Of a stretch of 64,000 nt of DNA, positions 4,024 through 29,071 are shown one piece after another. Source of the stretch: Roseateles puraquae. Lineage in GTDB: Bacteria; Pseudomonadota; Gammaproteobacteria; Burkholderiales; Burkholderiaceae_C. Every line of letters begins with the position of its first letter. Within the stretch, counting starts at the first letter, position 1. The stretch is taken from positions 620,001 through 684,000 of the forward strand of contig NZ_NISI01000001.1 of the NCBI RefSeq assembly GCF_002205845.1. Reading direction: 5' to 3'. The position numbers and the translations under genes were made by a program. The notes beneath the pieces were generated by a model. The model was not told the DNA's origin and searched no databases. It saw only the letters and a program-made list of their open reading frames with translations.

Positions 4024-4905
4024 ATGAAGCCCATCCTCGGCAGCATCGTCGCCCTCGTCACCCCCATGAACGAGGACGGCAGCATCGACTACCCGGCGCT
4101 GCGTCGCCTGATCGACTGGCATGTCGAGGAAGGCACGGCCTGTGTCGGCGTCGTCGGCACCACGGGCGAATCGCCCACGGTCAGCATGGAAGAGAACCGC
4201 GAAATCATTCGCGTGGCCGTCGAGCATGCCAAGGGCCGGATTCCCATCCTGGCTGGCACCGGCGCCAATTCCACCGCCGAGGCGATCGAGCTCAGCCGCT
4301 ACGCCAAGGAAGTGGGTGCCGATTGCACGCTGTCGGTGGTGCCCTACTACAACAAGCCCTCGCAGGAGGGCATCTACCAGCACTTCAAGGCGATCGCCGA
4401 GGCCGTGGACATCCCCATGATGCTCTACAACGTGCCTGGCCGGACCGTGGCAGACATGGCGCCCGAGACCACCCTGCGCTGCGCCAGCCTGCCCGGCGTG
4501 TTCGGCGTGAAGGAGGCCACCGGCAACATCGAGCGCGCGGCCTACCTGATCAAGCACGCGCCGGCGGGCTTTCACATCTACTCGGGCGATGACGGCACCG
4601 CCGTGGCGCTCATGCTGCTGGGCGGCCATGGCAATGTGAGCGTCACCGCCAACGTCGCCCCGCGCCAGATGGCCGAGATGTGCCGCCTGGCCATCGCCGG
4701 CAACGTCGTCGAGGCCCGCAAGATCCACCTGCAGCTGCTCGGCCTGCACAAGCAACTGTTCTGCGAACCCAGCCCAGCGCCGGCCAAGTGGGCGCTGTCG
4801 CGCCTGGGCCGCTGCGGCGCCGCGCTGCGCCTGCCCATCACGCCGCTGACCTCCGCCGGCCAGGCCAGCGTCGGTCAGGCGATGGTCGAAGCAGGTCTGC
4901 TCTAA
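4024..4905 (+). CDS. dapA: 4-hydroxy-tetrahydrodipicolinate synthase
   Basis: 293 residues, the usual DapA length. It condenses pyruvate with L-aspartate-semialdehyde in the first committed step of lysine and diaminopimelate synthesis. Visible landmarks are the pyruvate-binding TTGES (46-50), Y135 in LYNVPGR and the Schiff-base K163 in GVKEATGN. The ATG at 4024 is preferred because the protein aligns from its first residue with the family ([15 protein letters not shown]); the same frame is open upstream but is only an extension over the methyltransferase gene. The following gene is bamC, the same neighbour as in enterobacteria (dapA-nlpB). Confidence 0.97.
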
Positions 4906-4961
4906 TGCGCGGCTGCGCCAGCGCGGTCTGGCGCCTTTGTTCCCCGGAGATTTCCAGCGTG

Positions 4962-6143
4962 ATGTCTGTTTCCTCGCTTCGCCCCACGGCGACCCGTCTG
5001 GCCTGCACGGCCTTCGTCCTGTCGCTCGCCGGCTGCAGCACTTTCGACAGCGTGTTCTCGTCGGACAAGGTCGACTACAAGACCGCCGCCCGCCAGACCC
5101 AGGGCCTGGAAGTCCCGCCGGACCTGACCCAGCTCGCCAAGGACAATCGCGCCCAGGTGCAGGGCGGCTCGATCACCGCCTCCGCCCTGTCGGCCGTGAA
5201 GCCGGCGAATTCCACCAACGCCGCCGGCCTCGTGGCTGGCAGCGTGGCCACCAACGTGGCCGGTGATGTGCGCCTGGAGCGCAGCGGCAGCGAGCGCTGG
5301 CTGCACACGTCGCTCACGCCCGAGCAGCTCTGGCCGCAGATCCGCACCTTCTGGCAGGAGCGCGGCCTGGAGGTCATCAAGGAGCAGCCCGAGATCGGCG
5401 TCATGGAGACCAACTGGGCCGAAAACCGCGCCAAGTTGCCGCAGGACTTCATCCGCTCCACCATCGGCAAGGTGTTCGACGGCCTGTACTCCACCGGCGA
5501 GCGCGACATGTACCGCACCCGCATCGAGCGCGGCGCCAACGGCACCGACATCTTCATCAGCCACCGCGGCATGCAGGAGGTCTACACCTCCCAGAGTCGC
5601 GATTCAACCGCCTGGCAGGCCCGGCCGGCTGACCCCTTCCTCGAAGGCGAGATGCTGTCGCGCCTGATGCTCAAGCTCGGCGGCAAGGAAGACCTGGCCA
5701 AGGCCGTCGCGACCGAGTCCGGCAAGCCTGCGGCAACAACGGCGGCGGCCAACACCATGAAGGTGGGTGGCGACATGCCGCGGCCGGAGCGCCGTGCGCT
5801 GTCCGAAGTGCCTGACAGCCTGACCGTCAATGACGGCTTCGACCGAGCCTGGCGCCGCGTCGGCCTGTCGCTGGATCGCCATGGCTTCACCATCGAAGAC
5901 CGCGACCGTGCCGCCGGCCTGTTCTTCCTGCGCTATGCCGACCCCGAGAAGGCGGGCCAGGACGAACCCAACTTCTTCCAGCGCCTGTTCGGTGCCAAGG
6001 CGTCCGCGCCGGTGCGCTACCGCGTCGCGGTCAAGGCCGACGGCGTGAAGAGCACGGTGCGCATCCTGAACGACGGCGGCCAGCCGGTGACGGATGACAA
6101 CGCCAAGCGCATCCTCAGCCTGCTGATGGATGACCTGAAGTAA
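4962..6143 (+). CDS. bamC: Outer membrane assembly lipoprotein BamC
   Basis: 393 residues with a lipoprotein signal peptide ending in LSLAGC (acylated Cys at position 25). BamC is a component of the BAM complex, which inserts beta-barrel proteins into the outer membrane. A flexible N-terminal segment (VDYKTAARQTQGLEVPPDLT) precedes two helix-grip domains, roughly residues 95-235 and 270-390, the layout of BamC. I chose the ATG at 4962, preceded by GGAGA at 4946-4950; a GTG lies immediately before it at 4959, and another in-frame ATG overlaps the dapA stop at 4905. The dapA-bamC linkage supports the assignment. Confidence 0.92.
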   Translation: MSVSSLRPTATRLACTAFVLSLAGCSTFDSVFSSDKVDYKTAARQTQGLEVPPDLTQLAKDNRAQVQGGSITASALSAVKPANSTNAAGLVAGSVATNVAGDVRLERSGSERWLHTSLTPEQLWPQIRTFWQERGLEVIKEQPEIGVMETNWAENRAKLPQDFIRSTIGKVFDGLYSTGERDMYRTRIERGANGTDIFISHRGMQEVYTSQSRDSTAWQARPADPFLEGEMLSRLMLKLGGKEDLAKAVATESGKPAATTAAANTMKVGGDMPRPERRALSEVPDSLTVNDGFDRAWRRVGLSLDRHGFTIEDRDRAAGLFFLRYADPEKAGQDEPNFFQRLFGAKASAPVRYRVAVKADGVKSTVRILNDGGQPVTDDNAKRILSLLMDDLK

Positions 6144-6162
6144 ACCGACCCGCGCTGCCGTG

Positions 6163-6942
6163 ATGCGGTTCTGCAGCCTCGGCAGCGGCAGCGGCGGCAA
6201 CTCGACCCTCATCGAGGCCAGCCAGGGCATCACGCGCACGCGGCTGCTGGTAGACGCCGGCTTCAGCGTGCGCGAGCTCGTCAAGCGCCTCGCTCGTGCA
6301 GGCTGCGAGCCCGAATCGGTCGACGCGGTGTTCATCACGCACGAGCACGGCGATCACATCGGCTGCGCACTCGCCTTCGCCAGCCGCTACCGCGTACCGC
6401 TGGTCACCAGCCGCGGCACCTGGCGTGCCGTTGGCAAGGACGACTTCGATCCCGGGCTGTTGCGCCTCGTGCGCGACGGGGAGACCCTGGCGCTGGGCGA
6501 TCTCGAAGTGAACCCGTTCGGGGTGCCGCACGATGCCAACGAACCGTTGCAGCTGACCCTGAATGACGGCGCCGCACGCCTGGGCCTGGTCACCGACCTG
6601 GGCAGCGCGCCGGAGAGCGTGTCACGCGCATTGGCGGGCTGCCAGGCGCTGCTGCTGGAATGCAATCACGACGAGATGCTGTTGCGCAGCGGGCCGTATC
6701 ACCCGGCACTCAAGAAGCGCATCCTGGGCAGCCACGGGCATCTGTCGAACACCGCGGCTGCGGAGCTGCTGGCGCGCTGCCTGCACGGCCGGCTGTCGCT
6801 CGTGGCCGCCGCCCACCTCAGCGAGACCAACAACACGCCGGCACTGGCGCTCGCAGCGCTGGCGCCCGTCCTGCAGGGCGGCGGGCCGGAGGTCCGGGTG
6901 GCCGATCCCAAACTCGGGCTGGACTGGTTCGCCGTGGGCTGA
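6163..6942 (+). CDS. MBL-fold metallo-hydrolase
   Basis: 259 residues. The N-terminal strand MRFCSLGSGSGGNSTLIE and the metal-binding HEHGDH (H60, H62, D64, H65) define a metallo-beta-lactamase fold of the YycJ/PhnP-like group, which contains phosphodiesterases and nucleases. Later ligand positions are recognisable in ECNHDE, GSHGHLS and AAHLSETNN. An in-frame GTG lies three bases before the chosen ATG. The gene is 19 bases behind bamC and probably in the same transcript as dapA-bamC. Its C-terminus is compact, so this is not a longer RNase J-type enzyme. The physiological substrate is not predictable. Confidence 0.88.
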   Translation: MRFCSLGSGSGGNSTLIEASQGITRTRLLVDAGFSVRELVKRLARAGCEPESVDAVFITHEHGDHIGCALAFASRYRVPLVTSRGTWRAVGKDDFDPGLLRLVRDGETLALGDLEVNPFGVPHDANEPLQLTLNDGAARLGLVTDLGSAPESVSRALAGCQALLLECNHDEMLLRSGPYHPALKKRILGSHGHLSNTAAAELLARCLHGRLSLVAAAHLSETNNTPALALAALAPVLQGGGPEVRVADPKLGLDWFAVG

Positions 6943-7007
6943 TTCCGTCGGCGGACACGGCGCGCAAAGATTTGTAATCCAGGCGGGCGACGTTGGGGAA
7001 ACGTCGC

Positions 7008-7050
7008 AAAAAAGAAAAAAGCCGCCGCTGCTTTCGCAGCGACGGCTTTT
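7008..7050. terminator. Strong bidirectional intrinsic terminator
   Basis: An 11-bp stem with one mismatch (7021-7031 with 7036-7046, loop TTTC) is flanked on the left by a nearly pure A tract (7008-7020) and on the right by T4 (7047-7050). Read on the minus strand, the hairpin is followed by a long U tract and lies just behind the stop codon of the small lipoprotein gene. Read on the plus strand it follows the MBL-fold hydrolase gene, with a weaker U4 tail. Confidence 0.9.
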
Positions 7051-7068
7051 CTCGTGGGGACGAAGTGA

Positions 7069-7272
7069 TTACTTCGAGGCAGCCGAAGCGCCAGCGTCGA
7101 CAGCCGAAGCGCCGGCGTCCACAGCGCTGGCAGCAGCCGAAGCAGCTTCCGAAGCGGCCGGGGCGGGAGCGGCGACGGGGGCCGGGGCCTCAACCTTGGG
7201 TTCTTCCTTCTTGCTGCAAGCGGTCAGAGCAGCAGCAGCCAGCAGGGAAGCCAACAGGATCGACTTATTCAT
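7069..7272 (-). CDS. Small Ala-rich lipoprotein
   Basis: 67 residues when started at the ATG at 7272; an upstream in-frame start at 7284 would add four residues. The signal peptide MNKSILLASLLAAAALTAC ends in a lipobox with acylated Cys19. The mature part begins SKKEEPKVEAP and is otherwise Ala/Pro/Ser/Glu with the heptapeptide VDAGASA in tandem (a 21-bp DNA repeat). It looks like an unstructured surface or periplasm-facing tether; function is unknown. The gene stands alone between its own likely promoter and a strong terminator, which suggests substantial expression. Confidence 0.8.
   Translation of the reverse strand: MNKSILLASLLAAAALTACSKKEEPKVEAPAPVAAPAPAASEAASAAASAVDAGASAVDAGASAASK
7080..7121. 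repeat. Two tandem 21-bp units in the small lipoprotein gene
   Basis: Positions 7080-7100 and 7101-7121 are two copies of a 21-bp unit that differ at two positions. On the minus strand each encodes one VDAGASA-type heptapeptide, and a degenerate third copy follows. Copy number of such units may vary between strains by replication slippage without breaking the frame. Confidence 0.75.
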
Positions 7273-7408
7273 ACTTGTCCTCAAACGTTGATACGACGGT
7301 GCACACCATAATTTTGGGGTCGTGCGCCAGTGCGTTTTTCACACCGACTGCCGACCCCGACAGAACAAGACGCGGAAAACCTCGAGCGCTTCCCTCGCCT
7401 AGCCAACA

Positions 7409-7414
7409 ATTATA
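7409..7414 (-). promoter_or_regulatory. Candidate -10 element for the small lipoprotein gene
   Basis: A perfect TATAAT on the minus strand lies in an AT-richer patch of the 164-base gap upstream of the lipoprotein start (7272). No good -35 box stands at 16-18 bp; the closest TTGTGA is about 22 bp upstream. The implied leader is about 130 bases. This is a sequence-pattern call only. Confidence 0.4.
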
Positions 7415-7436
7415 GGGGTTTGCGCGACAGCTTCGG

Positions 7437-7931
7437 TCACAACCCCAAAGTCGTGGGCGCAAATGATTCGCTCGAACGTTGTGCAACGGCATCAAACCAT
7501 TCAAGCCCGCGCAGCCGCTGGGCGGCTTCCAGGCTGATCTCGCCCCGCCAAAGATGCCGGTCGAACAGGCGCAGCGTCACCGTGGACTCGGCACAGACAG
7601 CCATCAGCAAGCTTTCCGGCGCGCCTTCAAGCCGCAACTCCGGCTCCACCGCCCGGGCCGTTATGCAGTGGGCGAAGTCACGCCGCCAGCGCACGAACCG
7701 CGGATGGCGGCGGGCGATGTCCTCGTACTGCACGGCCAGCAGATGCAATTGGCGCCCGGCACGCGCCCAACTGGTGAGCGACGCCAGCGCCTGCGCGTCC
7801 GACAAGGGCCAGTCGACAAAGCTGTCATCCCAGGCATGCACCTCGCGGCAGCCCTGTGCCGAGATCCAGCCCAGCATCTCGACCATCAGCCGCTGGAACT
7901 CGGCCCGGCCCGAAAAGGTCTGGGCCTTCAT
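7437..7931 (-). CDS. Uncharacterised protein coupled to roxA
   Basis: 164 residues, starting at the ATG that overlaps the roxA stop (ATGA on the minus strand at 7931-7928). It is rich in Trp, Arg and Leu and contains segments such as VEMLGWISAQGCREVHAWD and QYEDIARRHPRFVRWRRDF. The predicted protein is soluble with mixed alpha/beta character, with no signal peptide and no recognised catalytic motif. Tight coupling suggests a role linked to the oxygenase or simply shared expression. I do not recognise a characterised family. Confidence 0.65.
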   Translation of the reverse strand: MKAQTFSGRAEFQRLMVEMLGWISAQGCREVHAWDDSFVDWPLSDAQALASLTSWARAGRQLHLLAVQYEDIARRHPRFVRWRRDFAHCITARAVEPELRLEGAPESLLMAVCAESTVTLRLFDRHLWRGEISLEAAQRLRGLEWFDAVAQRSSESFAPTTLGL

Positions 7932-21622: not shown

Positions 21623-24337
21623 ATGCCGAAACCCGTTGCCGACCACGCCTTTGCCCACACCCAGGACGAGTTCCAGACCGCTTCCGGGAAATCCGGCCGC
21701 TTCTTCTCGTTGCCACGGCTTGCCCAGAGCCACCCCAACGTGGCCCGGCTGCCGGTGTCGCTGCGCATCGTGCTGGAGAGCGTGCTGCGCAACTGCGACG
21801 GCAAGAAGGTGACGCCGGAGCACGTGGCCCAGCTCGCCGGCTGGCAGCCCACGGCGCCCCGGGTGGATGAGATCCCCTTCGTCGTGGCGCGCGTGGTGCT
21901 GCAGGACTTCACCGGCGTGCCGCTGCTGGCCGACCTGGCCGCCATGCGCAATGTGGCGGCCAGCCTGGGCAAGAACCCCAAGTCCATCGAGCCGCTGGTG
22001 CCGGTGGACCTGGTGGTGGACCACAGCGTGATGATCGACCACTACGGCACCAAGAAGTCGCTGGACCTCAACATGAAGCTGGAGTTCGAGCGCAACCGCG
22101 AGCGCTACGAGTTCATGAAGTGGGGCATGCAGGCCTTCGACACCTTCGGCGTCGTGCCGCCGGGCTTCGGCATCGTGCACCAGGTCAACCTCGAATACCT
22201 CGCCCGCGGCGTGCACAAGGGCCCGGGCAAGGTCTACTACCCCGACAGCCTGGTGGGCACCGACAGCCACACCACCATGATCAACGGCATCGGCGTGGTC
22301 GGCTGGGGCGTGGGCGGCATTGAGGCCGAGGCCGGCATGCTGGGTCAGCCGGTGTATTTCCTGACGCCTGACGTGGTGGGCTTCGAGCTCACCGGGCAAC
22401 TGCGCGAAGGCGTGACCGCCACCGACCTGGTGCTCACCGTCACCGAGATGCTGCGCAAGCACAAGGTGGTGGGCAAGTTCGTGGAGTTCTTCGGCGAAGG
22501 CACCGCCAGCCTGGCCCTGCCCGACCGCGCCACGATTGCCAACATGGCGCCGGAGTACGGCGCCACGATGGGCTTCTTCCCGGTCGACGAGAAGACGGTC
22601 GACTACTTCCGCGGCACCGGCCGCAGCAAGGCCGAAATCGAGGCCTTCGAGGCCTACTGGCGCGCCCAGGGCCTGTTCGGCATCCCGAAGCGCGGCGACA
22701 TCGACTACACCTCGGTCGTGACACTCGACCTGGGCACCGTGGCCCCGAGCCTGGCCGGCCCCAAGCGCCCGCAGGACCGCATCGAGATCGGCAAGCTCTC
22801 GTCCAGCTTTGCCGAGCTCTTCAGCCAGCCCACGGCCGCCAACGGCTTCAACCAGCCGGCCGAGAAGCTGGCGCAGACGTTCAAAACCGACGCCGGTCTG
22901 CCGGTGCGCAACGGCGACGTGCTGATCGCGGCCATCACGTCCTGCACCAACACCTCCAACCCCGGCGTCCTGCTGGCGGCCGGCCTGCTGGCCAAGAAGG
23001 CGGTGGAGGCGGGCCTCACGGTGCAGCCGCACATCAAGACCTCGCTGGCGCCGGGCTCGCGCATCGTCACGGAGTATCTGCAGAAGGCCGGCCTGCTGCC
23101 CTACCTGGAGAAGCTCGGCTTCAACGTCGCGGCCTATGGCTGCACGACCTGCATCGGCAACGCCGGCGACCTCACGCCCGAGCTGAACAAGGTCATCCAG
23201 GACAACGACCTGGTCTGCGCGGCCGTGCTGTCAGGCAACCGCAACTTCGAGGCACGCATCCACCCCAACCTGAAGGCCAACTTCCTGGCCAGCCCGCCAC
23301 TGGTGGTGGCCTACGCCATCGCTGGCACCGTCACCAAGGACTTGATGACCGAACCCGTGGGCATCGGCAAGAAGGGCCGCGCGGTCTACCTGGGCGACAT
23401 CTGGCCGAGCAGCGACGAGATCCATGCGCTGATGAAGCACGCCATGGACGCCAAGGCCCTCAAGGCCAACTACGACCAGGTCAGCCGCAAGCCCGGCAAG
23501 CTCTGGGATGCCATCAAGGGCGTGAAGGGCCAGGTCTACACCTGGCCCAAGAGCACCTACATCGCCCAGCCGCCCTTCTTCGAGGGCTTCACGATGGCGC
23601 CGCCGGCCCTCGTGGCCGGCGTCAAGGGCGCCAAGATCATGGCGCTGTTCGGCGACTCCATCACCACCGACCACATCAGCCCCGCCGGCTCCTTCAAGGA
23701 GAGCACGCCGGCCGGCAAGTTCCTGGTAGAGCACGGCGTCGCCAAGGTCGACTTCAACTCCTATGGCGCGCGGCGCGGCAACCACGACGTGATGGTGCGC
23801 GGCACCTTCGCCAACGTGCGCGTGAAGAACCTGATGCTGCCCGCCCTGCCCGACGGCTCGCGTGAGGAGGGCGGCTACACGCTGAAGGACGGCGCCAAGA
23901 CCACCATCTACGACGCCGCCCAGGCCTACATCGCCGAGGGCACGCCGACCGTGGTGTTCGCCGGTGAGGAATACGGCACCGGGTCCAGCCGCGACTGGGC
24001 GGCCAAGGGCACGCAGCTGCTCGGCATCAAGGCGGTGGTGGCCAAGAGCTTCGAGCGCATCCACCGCAGCAACCTCATCGGCATGGGCGTGCTGCCCCTG
24101 CAGTTCAAGCCCGGCACCAGCTGGGAGAGCCTGGGCCTGACGGGCAGCGAGACCATCGACATCACGTTGGCCGACGACATCAAGCCCCAGGGCGACGCCG
24201 CCATGACCATCACGCGCGCCGACGGCAGCACGCAGACCGTGGTGCTCACGCTGCGCATCGACACCGCCATCGAGGTCGACTACTACCGCCACGGCGGCAT
24301 CCTGCCCTTCGTGCTGCGGCAATTGCTGGCGGCCTGA
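21623..24337 (+). CDS. acnA: Aconitate hydratase A
   Basis: 904 residues, the AcnA/IRP1 length. It isomerises citrate and isocitrate in the TCA cycle, using a [4Fe-4S] cluster. Cluster ligands are C441 ([10 protein letters not shown]), C507 and C510 ([10 protein letters not shown]). The C-terminal swivel domain carries [12 protein letters not shown] and [15 protein letters not shown]. The ATG at 21623 is preceded by AAAGGAG about six bases upstream, which fixes the start against the longer frame. AcnA-type enzymes can also bind mRNA when the cluster is lost. It appears to be a single-gene unit. Confidence 0.98.
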
Positions 24338-24384
24338 CCACCCAGGGCCTCACTAAGCTGTTTCCGGGGACAGGACAGTCCTCG

Positions 24385-24405
24385 GACGGCCGGGGCCCGG
24401 CCGTC
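24385..24405. terminator. Long perfect inverted repeat downstream of acnA
   Basis: A 10-bp perfect inverted repeat (24385-24394 with 24396-24405) with only one base at the centre, almost entirely G+C, lies 47 bases after the acnA stop. No T tract follows, so it may be a Rho-assisted stop or an mRNA 3'-end barrier rather than a classical terminator. It also sits 57 bases before the metalloprotease start. Confidence 0.5.
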
Positions 24406-24462
24406 ACCAGAATGCGGCGCTTCTTCAACCCGCGCCCCGATCGGGGCCGACAAGGAGCCCGC

Positions 24463-25557
24463 ATGACAACCTGGTTCAAGTTGACCGCCGCCGCCTTCGC
24501 CGTTGCCGCCTCCGGCGCCAGCCATGCCGCCAGTGGCGAATGCCTGGATGTGCGCCTGACCAGCGCCGGCCCCATCGTCACCGGCGACGTGGACGTGCAT
24601 GTGGACGTGGCCGTGACCAACCTCTGCCGCACCGCTGTGCAGGTGCTGCGCTGGCAGCTGCCCAGCGACAAGATGAGCGGCGCCCTCTTCCGCGTGACGC
24701 GTGACGATGCGCCGGTGCGCTACACCGGCCCGGTCATCAAGCGGGCCGCTCCCACGGCCAAGGACTATGTCGAGATCGCCGCGGGCGCGACGCTGAACTA
24801 CCGCGTCGAGCTGACGGGCGCCTACGACTTCAGCAAGAACGGCCGCTACGCCATCGAGTTCCAGAGCGACCGGGGCACGCACGGTTCGGGCGCGCAGTCG
24901 ATGCGCAGCCCGACCGCCATGTACCTGTGGGCCCAGGGCCGCAACGAGAAGCTCGGCGCGGCGGACGCCGTCGCCGAGACCCAGGCCTTGAACGCCATGG
25001 CCACCGCTGCCGCAAGCCCCAACGTGACGGCTGCCGCAGCCAGCATCTCCTACACCGGCGCCTGCACCAGCAGCCAGAAGTCCACCCTCGCCTCGGCGGT
25101 GACGGCCGCCACCAACTACGCGGTGAACTCGGCGTCCTATCTCAGCGGCACGCCGTCGGCCACGCCGCGCTACACCAGCTGGTTCGGCGCCTATACGCTG
25201 GCGCGCTGGAACACGGCCAAGGACCACTTCGTGAAGGCCCGCAACGCCTTCCAGAGCGCCGCCCTGACGCTGGACTGCAGCTGCACCGACAGCGGCACCT
25301 ATGCCTACGTCTACCCGACGCAGCCCTACAAGATCTACGTGTGCGGCGCCTTCTGGAACGCGCCGATGACCGGCACCGACAGCAAGGGCGGCACGCTGGT
25401 GCACGAGATGATGCACTTCAACGTCATCGCGAGCACCGATGACTGGGCCTACGGCCAAAGCGCCGCATTGAGCCTGGCCAAGTCCAACCCGACCAAGGCG
25501 CTGGACAACTCCGACAACCACGAGTACTTCGCGGAGAACAACCCGGTCAAGAACTGA
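24463..25557 (+). CDS. Secreted M35-family (aspzincin) metalloendopeptidase
   Basis: 364 residues with signal peptide MTTWFKLTAAAFAVAASGASHA. Residues about 24-145 form a beta-rich N-terminal domain (CLDVRLTSAGPI... to YAIEFQSD), which in M35 enzymes is the propeptide. The catalytic domain (about 185-364) has HEMMH with H314, E315 and H318, and the aspzincin motif STDDWAYG (324-331) whose second Asp, D327, is the third zinc ligand. Related enzymes are deuterolysins and the peptidyl-Lys endopeptidases. Four Cys in the catalytic domain probably form disulfides. The start is fixed by AAGGAG ten bases upstream. The next gene encodes a relative of the N-terminal domain alone. Confidence 0.92.
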   Translation: MTTWFKLTAAAFAVAASGASHAASGECLDVRLTSAGPIVTGDVDVHVDVAVTNLCRTAVQVLRWQLPSDKMSGALFRVTRDDAPVRYTGPVIKRAAPTAKDYVEIAAGATLNYRVELTGAYDFSKNGRYAIEFQSDRGTHGSGAQSMRSPTAMYLWAQGRNEKLGAADAVAETQALNAMATAAASPNVTAAAASISYTGACTSSQKSTLASAVTAATNYAVNSASYLSGTPSATPRYTSWFGAYTLARWNTAKDHFVKARNAFQSAALTLDCSCTDSGTYAYVYPTQPYKIYVCGAFWNAPMTGTDSKGGTLVHEMMHFNVIASTDDWAYGQSAALSLAKSNPTKALDNSDNHEYFAENNPVKN

Positions 25558-25609
25558 CGCGGCCACGAGGCGCCGATCGCAGACGCCCAGGCTGGGCTAG
25601 GCTTGCGTC

Positions 25610-26110
25610 ATGTCCTTCGCTACTGGCATCAGCCGCCGCTGCCTCGCCGCGGCCCTGCTGGCTGCCTGCACCTCCGCCATGGCCGCTCCCGCGCCGCTGT
25701 CCTGCCGCTTCGAGGCCGCCGCGTCGGGCGGCCAGGTGCAGCTCACGTTCACGCTGCGCAACACCGGCACGACAGAGGTGCAGTTGCTGCGCTGGGGCAG
25801 CCCCTTCGAAGGCGCCTGGTTCGCCCCCTTCGTTACCGTCCACGGCGCCGGGGGCGCGCTGCCTTTCCAGGGGGCACTGCGCAAGCGCGGCGACCCGTCG
25901 GCGCAGGATTACCTGCGGCTGCGGGCCGGCGAGGAACGCCAGGCTGCCTTGACGCTTGACGACGCCTACGCCCTGCCGCCCCAAGGCGCCTTGACCCTCA
26001 AGGCCGCCTGGCGCTGGCATGACGTCATCACCGCTGGCAACGCGCCCCGCCCCCGCTCGGCGCACCAGGGGCAGGAGCAAGCCTGCGGCGAGGTGCTGCT
26101 GAAGCGCTGA
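25610..26110 (+). CDS. Secreted stand-alone homologue of the M35 protease N-terminal domain
   Basis: 166 residues with a signal peptide (MSFATGISRRCLAAALLAACTSAMAA). The mature part parallels the N-terminal domain of the preceding protease: both share N-x-x-x-T-x-V-Q-x-L-R-W, then F-x-V-T, K-R-x-x-P-x-A-x-D-Y, A-G, and A-Y near the end of the domain, in the same order and spacing. No catalytic domain follows. It is on the same strand, 52 bases downstream. Because M35 propeptides keep the enzyme inactive or help it fold, this protein may inhibit or chaperone the protease; that role is inferred. A Cys pair (positions near 32 and 161) could close a disulfide. Confidence 0.75.
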   Translation: MSFATGISRRCLAAALLAACTSAMAAPAPLSCRFEAAASGGQVQLTFTLRNTGTTEVQLLRWGSPFEGAWFAPFVTVHGAGGALPFQGALRKRGDPSAQDYLRLRAGEERQAALTLDDAYALPPQGALTLKAAWRWHDVITAGNAPRPRSAHQGQEQACGEVLLKR

Positions 26111-26168
26111 CGAAGGTCACAGGGCCCCGCAGGCGCTACCCTGCGCGCCCGGCTCCTGACCTTCCCCC

Positions 26169-27284
26169 ATGACACGCCTTCCCGGCCTCGACCTCCTGCG
26201 CAGCATCGCCATCGTCTGGGTGATGTGTTTTCACACCTTCCTGATCGGGGGCCTCGGGCCTGATTGGGCATGGCTCACGCGCTTCGGCTGGGCGGGCGTG
26301 GACATCTTCTTCGTGCTCAGTGGCTTCCTGATCGGCTCGCAACTGCTGCAGGGCCTGCAGCGCGGCGAGTCGCTGTCGCTGCGTGACTTCTACTGGCGCC
26401 GGGCCTGGCGCATCCTGCCGGCCTTCGGGGTGACGCTGGCGGTGTACCTCGCCTTCCCGCTGCTCCGCGAAGAGCCCAACATCGAGGCCTGGTGGCAGTT
26501 CGCCAGCTTCACGCTCAACCTGCTGATCGACTACGGGCAGAACCAGGCCTTCTCGCATGCCTGGTCGCTGTGTGTCGAAGAGCACTTCTACCTCGTGTTC
26601 CCGCTGCTGGCGGTCTGGATGGCCCGCCGCCCGAGCGCGCCGCGCTTCATCGGCCTGTGCGCGCTGCTCGTGCTCGGCGGCATCGCGCTGCGCACCGGCG
26701 TCTGGCTGCACAACGACGCCCTCCAGCCCCAGCGTCCCTGGTTCATCGAAGACATCTACTACCCCACCTGGATGCGGCTGGACGGCCTGCTGATGGGCGT
26801 GGTGCTGGCCGTCGTGCGGGTCTACCGGCCGGGCCGATGGGCGCAGTTGCAGGCGCGGCCCAACGTGCTCGCGGCGGCAGGGTTGGCGCTGGCGGGCCTG
26901 GCGCTGCTGCTGTTTCGCAACCGCACCGGCCTGGCTGCCAATGCGGTGGGCTGGCCGGTGCTGTCCGCGGGTTTTGCGCTGCTGGTACTGGCGGCCTCGT
27001 CGCGCGAGGGGCTTCTGGGGCGCTGGGCGCTGCCAGGCGCAAGCTGGCTGGCGGCCATCTCCTATTCGCTCTACCTGAGCCACAAGCTCGCCATGCATGC
27101 GGTGAACACCTGGCTGGCGCCGGCTCTGCCGCTGCAGGGCATGGCCCTCTTTCCGGTGTATGCCGCGGTCATCCTGGCGGTCGGCGCTGCGCTGCACTAC
27201 CTCGTCGAGCGCCCTGGGCTGATGCTGCGCGACCGTCTGGGGCGCCGCCCCGCCGCGACGCACATCGCGCCCGGCGCCGCCTGA
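26169..27284 (+). CDS. Acyltransferase family 3 (OafA/YrhL-like) membrane protein
   Basis: 371 residues, about ten membrane helices, inner membrane. The family signature starts RLPGLDLLRSIAIVWVMCFHTF with the essential helix-1 region His, followed by GWAGVDIFFVLSGFLIG, YWRRAWRILPAF and HAWSLCVEEHFYLVFPL. Such proteins move acetyl or other acyl groups onto extracytoplasmic sugars (O-antigen, peptidoglycan, exopolysaccharide). No SGNH domain is attached. The target here cannot be told from neighbours, since the polysaccharide cluster lies 20 kb away. It converges with the M28 peptidase gene, 15 bases apart. Confidence 0.9.
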   Translation: MTRLPGLDLLRSIAIVWVMCFHTFLIGGLGPDWAWLTRFGWAGVDIFFVLSGFLIGSQLLQGLQRGESLSLRDFYWRRAWRILPAFGVTLAVYLAFPLLREEPNIEAWWQFASFTLNLLIDYGQNQAFSHAWSLCVEEHFYLVFPLLAVWMARRPSAPRFIGLCALLVLGGIALRTGVWLHNDALQPQRPWFIEDIYYPTWMRLDGLLMGVVLAVVRVYRPGRWAQLQARPNVLAAAGLALAGLALLLFRNRTGLAANAVGWPVLSAGFALLVLAASSREGLLGRWALPGASWLAAISYSLYLSHKLAMHAVNTWLAPALPLQGMALFPVYAAVILAVGAALHYLVERPGLMLRDRLGRRPAATHIAPGAA

Positions 27285-27299
27285 TGGCGGCAACAGCCT

Positions 27300-28544
27300 T
27301 CAGGGCTTGATCGACAGCCCCACCAGCTGGCTCACCGCCGCCAGCGTGGTCTGCGCAGCGTTCAGGCCGAGCAGGAAATCCTTGTCGGAGTAGCTGGAGA
27401 ACAGATCGGTGGGCTGGTGCCAGTGCGGGTTCCAGCCCGCGCCGATCTGCATGCCGCGCTCGTTCTCGCGTACCGAGACCGCCGGCGCCAAGTCCATGAA
27501 CGGCGTGGAATCGGTGTTGGTCATGCGGTTGCCGACGGCAGCGGGGTAGTCGGTCGCGTACTTCTCGTTGGCCGCACGCAGGGCCCAGGCCAGGCGGGCC
27601 GAGGCGTCGGCGAACTTGGAATTGACCTGGAACTCGATGTTGACGTCGGCCTCGGCGCGCTGCTCCTTGGGCGCGACATACACCGGCTGGCCGCGCGCAT
27701 CGAGCACCGGCTTGCCGTTGGCATCGAGCTTGGGTTGCGGCATGCCGTGGTCGAACAGCAGCATGTCGTGCTGGATGATGCCCAGCCAGCGCGGCTCGGG
27801 GTAGCGACCCGAGCCGGGCGGTGATTCGATGCCCTGCAGGTCCTTGCGCTGGGCGACGTAGGCGTAGGCGCCATTGAGCCCGGTCTCCTCGTTGTTCCAG
27901 AGGATGAAGCGGACGGATCGCTCGGTGCTCACCCCCGGCTGGCTGAAGAGGCGCGCCAGCTCCATGACCAGCGCCGTGCCCGAGCCATCGTCATTGGCCG
28001 CCTCGCCAAAGCCGATGCCGTCCATGTGGGCCGACACGATGATCATTTCATCCGGCCGGTTGCTGCCGACCTTGGTGCAGTAGACGCTCTCACGCGGGCC
28101 GGTGCCCAGCGGCGTGGGCTCGGCATTGAGCGCGCGCAGCTTTTCGTCGGGCTGGGCCAGGGGGTCGGTGTTCACGCCGATGGCGGCACGGTTGCCGAAC
28201 AGCGTGCCGCCGCCCTGGGCTGCCGGGCCGCCCGCACGCCGGGGCTGCAACTGCACCGGGTTGCGGCGCGCGGGCTCGGTGAACTCGTAGCGCAGGCGTT
28301 CGATGTTGGTGCAGCCGTACTGCTGCAGCTGCGCCTCTATCCAGTCCAGCGCCGCCCGGTTGCGCGCGGTGCCCTGGCGCCGGTCACCGAAGCGCGTCAG
28401 GCCCTGGATGGTGGCCTTGTAGCGCTCCAGGCTCAGCTGGTCGACCAGCTTGGCCACTGGGTCGGCTTGCGCCGGCGGCTGGGCCTGCACGGTGGCGGCC
28501 ACCGTGACGAAGACGAGAGCGGCAAGGCGGGACTTGAGGACCAT
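27300..28544 (-). CDS. Secreted M28-family zinc peptidase
   Basis: 414 residues with signal peptide MVLKSRLAALVFVTVAATVQAQ. The M28 (aminopeptidase Y-like) metal ligands and catalytic residues are recognisable in order: SAHMDGIGFG (His and Asp), ANDDGSGTALVMELA (bridging Asp), WNNEETGLNGAY (catalytic Glu and metal Glu), NTDSTPFMDLAP (Asp) and HWHQPTDLFS (final His). It probably removes N-terminal residues from peptides in the periplasm or outside. The start at 28544 is chosen for the signal peptide; an in-frame ATG at 28574 would add ten residues. It is divergent from the next small gene. Confidence 0.92.
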   Translation of the reverse strand: MVLKSRLAALVFVTVAATVQAQPPAQADPVAKLVDQLSLERYKATIQGLTRFGDRRQGTARNRAALDWIEAQLQQYGCTNIERLRYEFTEPARRNPVQLQPRRAGGPAAQGGGTLFGNRAAIGVNTDPLAQPDEKLRALNAEPTPLGTGPRESVYCTKVGSNRPDEMIIVSAHMDGIGFGEAANDDGSGTALVMELARLFSQPGVSTERSVRFILWNNEETGLNGAYAYVAQRKDLQGIESPPGSGRYPEPRWLGIIQHDMLLFDHGMPQPKLDANGKPVLDARGQPVYVAPKEQRAEADVNIEFQVNSKFADASARLAWALRAANEKYATDYPAAVGNRMTNTDSTPFMDLAPAVSVRENERGMQIGAGWNPHWHQPTDLFSSYSDKDFLLGLNAAQTTLAAVSQLVGLSIKP

Positions 28545-28696
28545 GGCGAGTCGGATGAGCAACGGGTGGCCCATCGTAAGCGCCAAGGAATTCACAGCCC
28601 TCCCGCAGCACCGCGACCCGGATGCGAACTCGCAACAGGCGATGCAGCCAGGCTTTCCTATCATCCGCCGCGCCCCACACCACGAGGGCGGCACCG

Positions 28697-29071
28697 ATGC
28701 CATACAAGATCGATTGGGAACGCGCCGGCGTCTACCGGCACTACTACGGCGACGTGAGCGTGGCCGAGCGGCGCGCTTCGCTCGTGGCGATCAGCGCCGA
28801 CCACCGCTTCGACGACCTGCGCTACGCCCTCACCAACTACCTCGACGTGCAGGCCTACGAAACAACCCCGGCGACGACGGCCGAGATCGCCGCCCTGCAC
28901 ATCGGGCCGATGTTCACCAACCCGCAGCTGATGATCGTGGCCGTGGCCCAGCGGCCCGACATCCTCGCGGCCATTGCCGACTTCCAGCGCCTGGGCTTCA
29001 TCAAGGCGCCCTATCGCGTCTTCCCGACGATGCCCGAAGCCCGCAGCTGGATCGACGGACAGCTGGCCTGA
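28697..29071 (+). CDS. Conserved-looking small cytoplasmic protein
   Basis: 124 residues with no signal peptide or membrane segment. The pattern of alternating strands and helices (MPYKIDWERAGVYRHYYGDVS, then FDDLRYALTNYLDVQ, LMIVAVAQRPDILAAIADFQ, FPTMPEARSWIDGQ) resembles a STAS/SpoIIAA-like alpha/beta fold, but this is an impression from layout only. No catalytic motif was seen. An in-frame ATG at 28622 exists; the one at 28697 fits the conserved-looking start better. It converges with the next gene on the minus strand. Confidence 0.6.
   Translation: MPYKIDWERAGVYRHYYGDVSVAERRASLVAISADHRFDDLRYALTNYLDVQAYETTPATTAEIAALHIGPMFTNPQLMIVAVAQRPDILAAIADFQRLGFIKAPYRVFPTMPEARSWIDGQLA

Follow-up and report, generated by a model that had tools for sequence, protein, structure and literature searches.

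The stretch of DNA analysed here, called the window, covers 64,000 nucleotides of Roseateles puraquae (NCBI RefSeq assembly GCF_002205845.1, contig NZ_NISI01000001.1, positions 620,001 to 684,000 of the forward strand). Inside the window, two genes lie 52 bp apart on the same strand: P0001 encodes a predicted secreted M35 metalloprotease with an N-terminal prodomain, and P0002 a small protein that corresponds to such a prodomain standing free. The pair comprises the following features:

24463..25557, + strand: P0001, predicted secreted AsaP1-type M35 (aspzincin, lysine-specific type) metalloendopeptidase, 364 aa (PF14521, AsaP1 and 1g12 matches)
24541..24942, + strand: N-terminal immunoglobulin (Ig)-like prodomain of P0001, residues ~27-160 (prodomain profile; model strands E28-33 to E153-158)
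24739..24744, + strand: K93-R94 of the P0001 prodomain, proposed P1'-mimic lysine and adjacent invariant arginine (M35 prodomain alignment)
25402..25416, + strand: HEMMH zinc/catalytic motif of P0001 (H314-E315-H318), followed by D327 and Y330 (invariant alignment columns)
25522..25524, + strand: E354 of P0001, putative equivalent of G. frondosa PKM Glu157, which sets lysine at P1' (structural match)
25558..25609, + strand: intergenic gap of 52 bp between P0001 and P0002 (promoter/terminator scan)
25610..26110, + strand: P0002, free-standing prodomain homologue, 166 aa, proposed protease inhibitor (BLASTP, prodomain profile, fold)
25658..25669, + strand: lipobox-like L17-A18-A19-C20 in the P0002 signal region (pattern scan)
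25703..25705 and 26084-26086, + strand: Cys32 and Cys159 of P0002, a possible disulphide with putative pairing (alignment)
25883..25888, + strand: K92-R93 loop of P0002, counterpart of K93-R94 in the P0001 prodomain (alignments)

A lysine-specific-type protease and its small neighbour

P0001 belongs to the M35 family, scoring 150.8 bits on PF14521 (curated cut-off 30, E 4.5e-44), and AsaP1 (2x3a) matches its residues 9-364 with E 3.6e-87. The G. frondosa PKM (1g12) matches across the catalytic domain in the sequence search, and Foldseek places the catalytic domain of the P0001 model on 1g12 with TMt 0.95. With E354 numbered from the superposition of P0001 196-364 on 1g12 1-167, the AsaP1/PKM-type residue set is complete (H314, E315, H318, D327, Y330 and E354). 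P0001 is, by its sequence, a lysine-specific-type M35 protease, predicted to cleave before lysine.

P0002, encoded by a separate gene beside the protease, has no catalytic domain, and searches of Pfam and NCBIfam return no assignment for it, all matches lying far under the curated cut-offs. Its residues 42-126 align with P0001 44-127 at 31% identity over 86 columns (BLASTP E 9e-8, a single comparison). Within its own genome, the sole match below 0.001 besides itself is the P0001 prodomain (E 4.9e-5). In the PDB search, the AsaP1 propeptide (2x3a residues 10-124) matches with E 9.6e-9 and 2x3b similarly, and outside the AsaP1 entries no match falls below E 0.8. On the prodomain profile, P0002 scores 169 bits and the P0001 prodomain 178 bits, P0002 and its relatives being part of the profile's training set. 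Judged on these comparisons, the similarity of P0002 to the P0001 prodomain exceeds chance. Both N termini look like signal peptides by eye, and Cys32 and Cys159 are both kept in most Burkholderiaceae free copies. The sequence-only reading of this DNA had described a colinear pattern shared by the two proteins, signal peptides on both and the lack of a catalytic domain in P0002; each of these points stands, at confirmed coordinates, and the structural similarity that it asked about is found, the P0002 model being Ig-like with the same fold as the AsaP1 propeptide.

The P0002 model also matches many unrelated Ig-like domains middlingly, and Ig-like folds are widespread adhesive modules, as would suit a substrate- or surface-binding accessory domain with no regulatory role, sharing ancestry with the prodomain by chance. 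Linkage and fusion to M35 genes, the conserved K-R loop and its co-variation with the active site, all described below, make such a domain highly improbable.

Origin of P0002 by a recent duplication of part of the gene next to it was considered and rejected, since the 16 free copies from Burkholderiaceae group together on the prodomain tree, apart from their neighbours' prodomains (SH-aLRT 97). The tree was built by a quick method, leaving out L081, L071, L152, L155 and the L111 half, and the labels free and own need at least 5 changes on it; a single origin of the free copies may fit, as may several.

No promoter-like or terminator-like site appears in 24250-26250, which is weak evidence with shuffled sequences averaging 0.1 and 0.9. 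The neighbours of the pair are an aconitase, an acyltransferase and an M28 peptidase, the last at 27300-28703 on the - strand (PF04389, E 9.9e-25), about 1.2 kb downstream with the acyltransferase in between.

The K-R loop and the S1' glutamate

In M35 prodomains, the K-R loop carries lysine in 74 of 81 cases and arginine in all 81. As stated in PMC11985622, lysine-specific M35 enzymes cleave before lysine, and the E157D substitution lets the G. frondosa enzyme (GfMEP) accept arginine as well at P1'. Among the first 41 proteins, the S1' glutamate and the loop lysine are both present in 38 and both lost in 3. The prediction was then fixed in writing and scored on 41 further frames: both residues occur in 35 and neither in 4, and 2 were flagged as having lysine without glutamate (L207|3873 and L200). 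The former, whose frame is split and whose catalytic half has E, was left out. Combined (n=81), 73 have both, 7 have neither, 1 has lysine without glutamate and 0 have glutamate without lysine (Fisher 2.3e-9). The lysine column stands far ahead among the prodomain columns, the best of the other 21 tested reaching 1.7e-3.

The second copies follow a similar pattern. Lysine is present in 52/52 copies that have one or more Glu-type M35 partners, L112 and L207 having a non-Glu partner in addition; of the 4 copies whose partner is non-Glu only, 3 have lost it, carrying Q, R and R instead. This count excludes L226, cut by a contig end, and artefacts such as L081, L071, L152 and the L111 half. The loci L115, L235 and L238 may represent one lineage.

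Alternatively, the loop might be a place where the protease cuts, for autoprocessing or as a decoy, with its lysine at P1', the free copy then serving as a sacrificial substrate and not as a lasting inhibitor. Such a site accounts for the co-variation equally well and agrees with the reported cut before lysine, but the loop is modelled at high confidence (block means 96-97), and the following arginine is invariant although a P1' lysine alone would suffice. We consider this quite improbable.

Gene pairs, fusions and possible membrane location

In the window's genus, P0002-like genes occur in 8 of 20 genomes, and M35 genes in exactly those 8. An even draw from family f1 gives M35 in 16 of 399 genomes, 3 of them from the window's genus; among the other 13, a free copy lies beside the M35 gene in 8 (G040, G076, G167, G214, G218, G250, G275, G377), 4 have no copy (G047, G094, G172, G253) and G353 is a fragment. 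In the class draw, PF14521 is found in 15/369 genomes, 12 of the prodomain-plus-catalytic type, the window's own included (G764, where a contig end precedes the prodomain, is counted by its catalytic domain). A second prodomain is nearby or fused in 9 of these 12, again with the window included, and missing in 2 (G425, G777), while the one genome left is cut by a contig end. The phylum draw, with M35 (PF14521) in 20/378, adds 6 genomes whose M35 bears a prodomain; a copy is present in 2 of them, at L142 and, encoded on the opposite strand, at L143, and absent from the other 4. In the families of G762 and G668, M35 is present in 13/21 and 25/48 genomes; because these families were picked for their M35-rich first members, pooling the counts does not yield a random sample.

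Over all loci, 82 M35 genes bear a prodomain, including the second M35 of L207, which is split over two frames and stands outside the K/E count. A separate copy lies within 3.5 kb of 56 of them, or 55 without the artefact L111, so that the solitary prodomain genes sought by the sequence-only reading do occur at other M35 loci; 4 are fused, 15 have no copy (16 with L111) and 7 are too close to a contig edge. One copy is common to two M35 genes at L074, L112 and L207. Most f1 and f146 loci have the copy downstream, most f144 loci upstream; L076 and L077 are truly downstream, their script label 'up' arising from slightly overlapping domain envelopes. Among the 16 genes with no adjacent copy, 12 are in genomes where a whole-genome profile search finds no free copy elsewhere (the second match in G425 is the L111 half), and the genomes of the other 4 (L104, L219, L222, L223) carry a copy beside another M35 gene. 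At the thresholds used, no prodomain-like neighbour was found for the prodomain-less M35 loci L117-L119, L145-L151, L153, L154, L156, L237, L239 and L240.

Several apparent cases were set aside. The L152 locus was considered as a split zymogen, a prodomain-less M35 with a separate prodomain, and rejected, its overlapping frames reading as one interrupted gene. The apparent free copy at L111 is one half of another M35, interrupted by an N run, and is uncounted. The weak copy at L071 lacks K-R and has no M35 in its 12-kb stretch, and L081 is a fragment. Separately, three genomes outside the window's class carry short prodomain-less M35 genes in a conserved context (L145 7168-7905, L146 7285-8094, L147 5434-6270). 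Each is preceded by the same two genes, which by eye code for an alanyl-tRNA-editing-like and a large secreted protein. A contig of a metagenome-assembled genome labelled Methylotenera (L004, JAIPCJ010000012.1) encodes an M35 with 98% identity to P0001; Methylotenera is probably a wrong label.

In five loci, protease and second prodomain share one stop-free frame, with that prodomain at its C-terminal end: L107, L114 and L254 in one genus, L109 and L211 in another. L254 came from additional genome searches and was read for domain order only. In the three read at length and the shown parts of L211 and L254, the order is protease, hydrophobic segment with basic residues, lipobox-like signal, second prodomain. 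The hydrophobic segment is mostly preceded by a Gly-rich stretch, giving a sorting-signal-like tail that we take to resemble GlyGly-CTERM. NCBIfam returns only a sub-cut-off match to MYXO-CTERM, in the unfused L212. PPC domains are weakly supported (L107, E 0.0077, under the cut-off; unfused L213, E 9e-7).

In a loose scan for a lipobox-like Cys after a hydrophobic stretch, 34/44 second copies match outside f1, or 34/40 without L111, L152, L155 (type VI secretion system, T6SS) and L226 (cut). Within f1 the figure is 6/18 (6/16 without L071 and L081), the L079 match falling on the mature Cys. The proteases' own prodomains match in 4/61 cases outside f1 and 3/21 inside. A strict lipobox is present in 1/18 second copies in f1, which is the window's, and in 2/61 own prodomains outside f1 and 1/21 inside. 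The copy looks like a lipoprotein in many other bacteria, a pattern that fits a membrane-held protector in the producer. The P0002 signal region reads as an LAAC lipobox followed by an AMA|AP signal-peptidase-I-like site, so that P0002 may be either a lipoprotein or a soluble protein.

The lipobox-like anchors would also suit a periplasmic foldase, a steric chaperone acting in trans that aids protease folding or outer-membrane crossing and does not inhibit. Prodomains often help folding, and membrane-anchored lipase foldases offer an analogy. Yet the protease already has its own prodomain, 16/82 genes have no adjacent copy and 12 of their genomes none elsewhere, and the coupling of the loop lysine to the S1' glutamate is left unexplained. 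A foldase is unlikely on this balance.

Proposed inhibition in trans and its counterparts

A more distant set of relatives is associated with the T6SS. At L155, a gene with a DNA match to E. coli T6SS VgrG-annotated genes precedes one for a signal-less M35 (PF14521 E 6.6e-9), and after that comes a gene whose secreted product contains a prodomain-like domain (31 bits on the prodomain profile). The annotated order in E. coli L157/L158 is the same: Hcp, VgrG, M35, hypothetical protein. The L157 small protein aligns to the L155 protector (BLASTP E 2e-7), and hhalign of L157/L158 together links them to L155 with probability 91 and E 9.6e-7 (L157 alone, probability 8, E 0.0042). A direct match of the prodomain profile to the E. 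coli protectors is not significant, the link running via L155, and a PDB search with the L155 protector gives no match. From their gene layout, the small proteins of L155 and L157/L158 are presumed immunity proteins. In the literature, an E. coli T6SS M35 effector is described as toxic and inhibited by its immunity protein (PMC10673891), VgrG2bC-ter/PA0261 is described with predicted lipoprotein homologues in Enterobacteriaceae (PMC6899460), and some M35 proteases are reported as virulence factors or T6SS toxins (PMC12924839, PMC10673891). P0001 and P0002 do not form such an effector-immunity pair, there being no T6SS spike or tip neighbour and the protease N terminus being signal-like. Signal-less M35 genes at L149 ~5458-7630 and L153 ~4552-6982 adjoin PAAR-like proteins (by eye). 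The small genes next to them are of other kinds, so the protectors of M35 T6SS effectors may not all be of one type.

In conclusion, P0002 is proposed to be a free-standing, diverged M35-prodomain paralogue that would inhibit the neighbouring protease in trans and protect the producer cell, with a probability of about 0.68. The computed support consists of homology and the AsaP1-propeptide Ig-like fold, M35 linkage in many genomes including fusions, K-R conservation, and co-variation of the lysine with the S1' glutamate. After export, the Ig-like domain of P0002 would present its K-R loop, and the loop lysine, mimicking a substrate, would enter the S1' lysine pocket. Inside the envelope, the free copy would block a protease that has shed its own prodomain; the lipoprotein-like copies of many other bacteria would hold this protection at the membrane. 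The earlier suggestion of an inhibitor, chaperone or self-protection factor is supported by these comparisons.

Several points weigh against inhibition in trans, which is itself proposed from computation. The K-R lysine could be an autoprocessing cut site. E358 of P0001 associates with the loop lysine as strongly as E354, and further catalytic columns also show an association, including G310 (8e-7), G304 and S307 (2e-5), so the Glu-less enzymes are a generally diverged group. The tree shows 3 changes each for E and K, and with only 3 independent pairs the sign test cannot reach significance. At L200 (3-1970, - strand), the sole own-prodomain exception, Gln occupies the S1' Glu position and the K-R lysine is kept, and the L236 free copy keeps K beside a non-E protease. 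In the AlphaFold proenzyme model, the domain arrangement is unlike that of the AsaP1 crystals (~17 A, whole chain), and thus the model does not show an active site occupied by the K-R loop. The existence of copy-less M35 genes and genomes means that the factor is dispensable, a strict lipobox is found in only 14/44 second copies outside f1, and the T6SS prodomain homologues lack K-R and would therefore block their protease differently.

A broader view, which we hold tentatively and at slightly less than even odds, is that one interchangeable Ig-like module serves as zymogen prodomain, free secreted or membrane-anchored protector, C-terminal half of a polyprotein and diverged T6SS immunity protein. 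In the polyprotein form, the protease and protector halves would be separated by a membrane segment resembling a sorting signal, followed by a lipobox.

If inhibition in trans is correct, these proteins would constitute a natural protein-inhibitor family for M35 proteases, with a lysine plug in the S1' pocket as mechanism, and an actual example of a zymogen prodomain that became a stand-alone protector; a small unnamed neighbour of many M35 genes in the sampled proteobacteria would gain a name. Among the papers listed in searches of a mainly open-access library, none describes a free-standing M35 prodomain in its title or abstract opening.

Among known systems, AsaP1 of Aeromonas (2x3a/2x3b/2x3c) is homologous to the protease over its full length, and P0002 has the fold and K-R loop of its propeptide. 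The AsaP1 propeptide reportedly inhibits intramolecularly, within the precursor, whereas the Roseateles locus adds a separate free gene product. The B. subtilis intracellular proteinase inhibitor (3isy) acts on other proteases and differs in being intracellular, with 11% identity to P0002 and no sequence-family match. Streptococcal SpeB/Spi likewise has an inhibitor gene with a propeptide-like product beside the protease gene, but involves a cysteine protease and a cytosolic inhibitor.

The stand-alone propeptide-like inhibitor beside a protease is a kind already known from subtilisins, as described in PMC6993865: SUB1-ProM, a small MEROPS I9 propeptide mimic encoded beside subtilisin-like genes, is a potent inhibitor. 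It concerns a serine protease of a eukaryotic parasite, unrelated in class and fold, and its inhibition is demonstrated, whereas that by P0002 is proposed. VgrG2bC-ter/PA0261 and the E. coli M35 T6SS pairs also combine an M35-type protease with an adjacent periplasmic or lipoprotein protector (PMC6899460, PMC10673891); the presumed L155 protector is a distant prodomain homologue, and PA0261 is compared by description. They differ in that P0001 has a predicted signal peptide, its own prodomain and no VgrG neighbour, and in that the T6SS protectors examined lack K-R.
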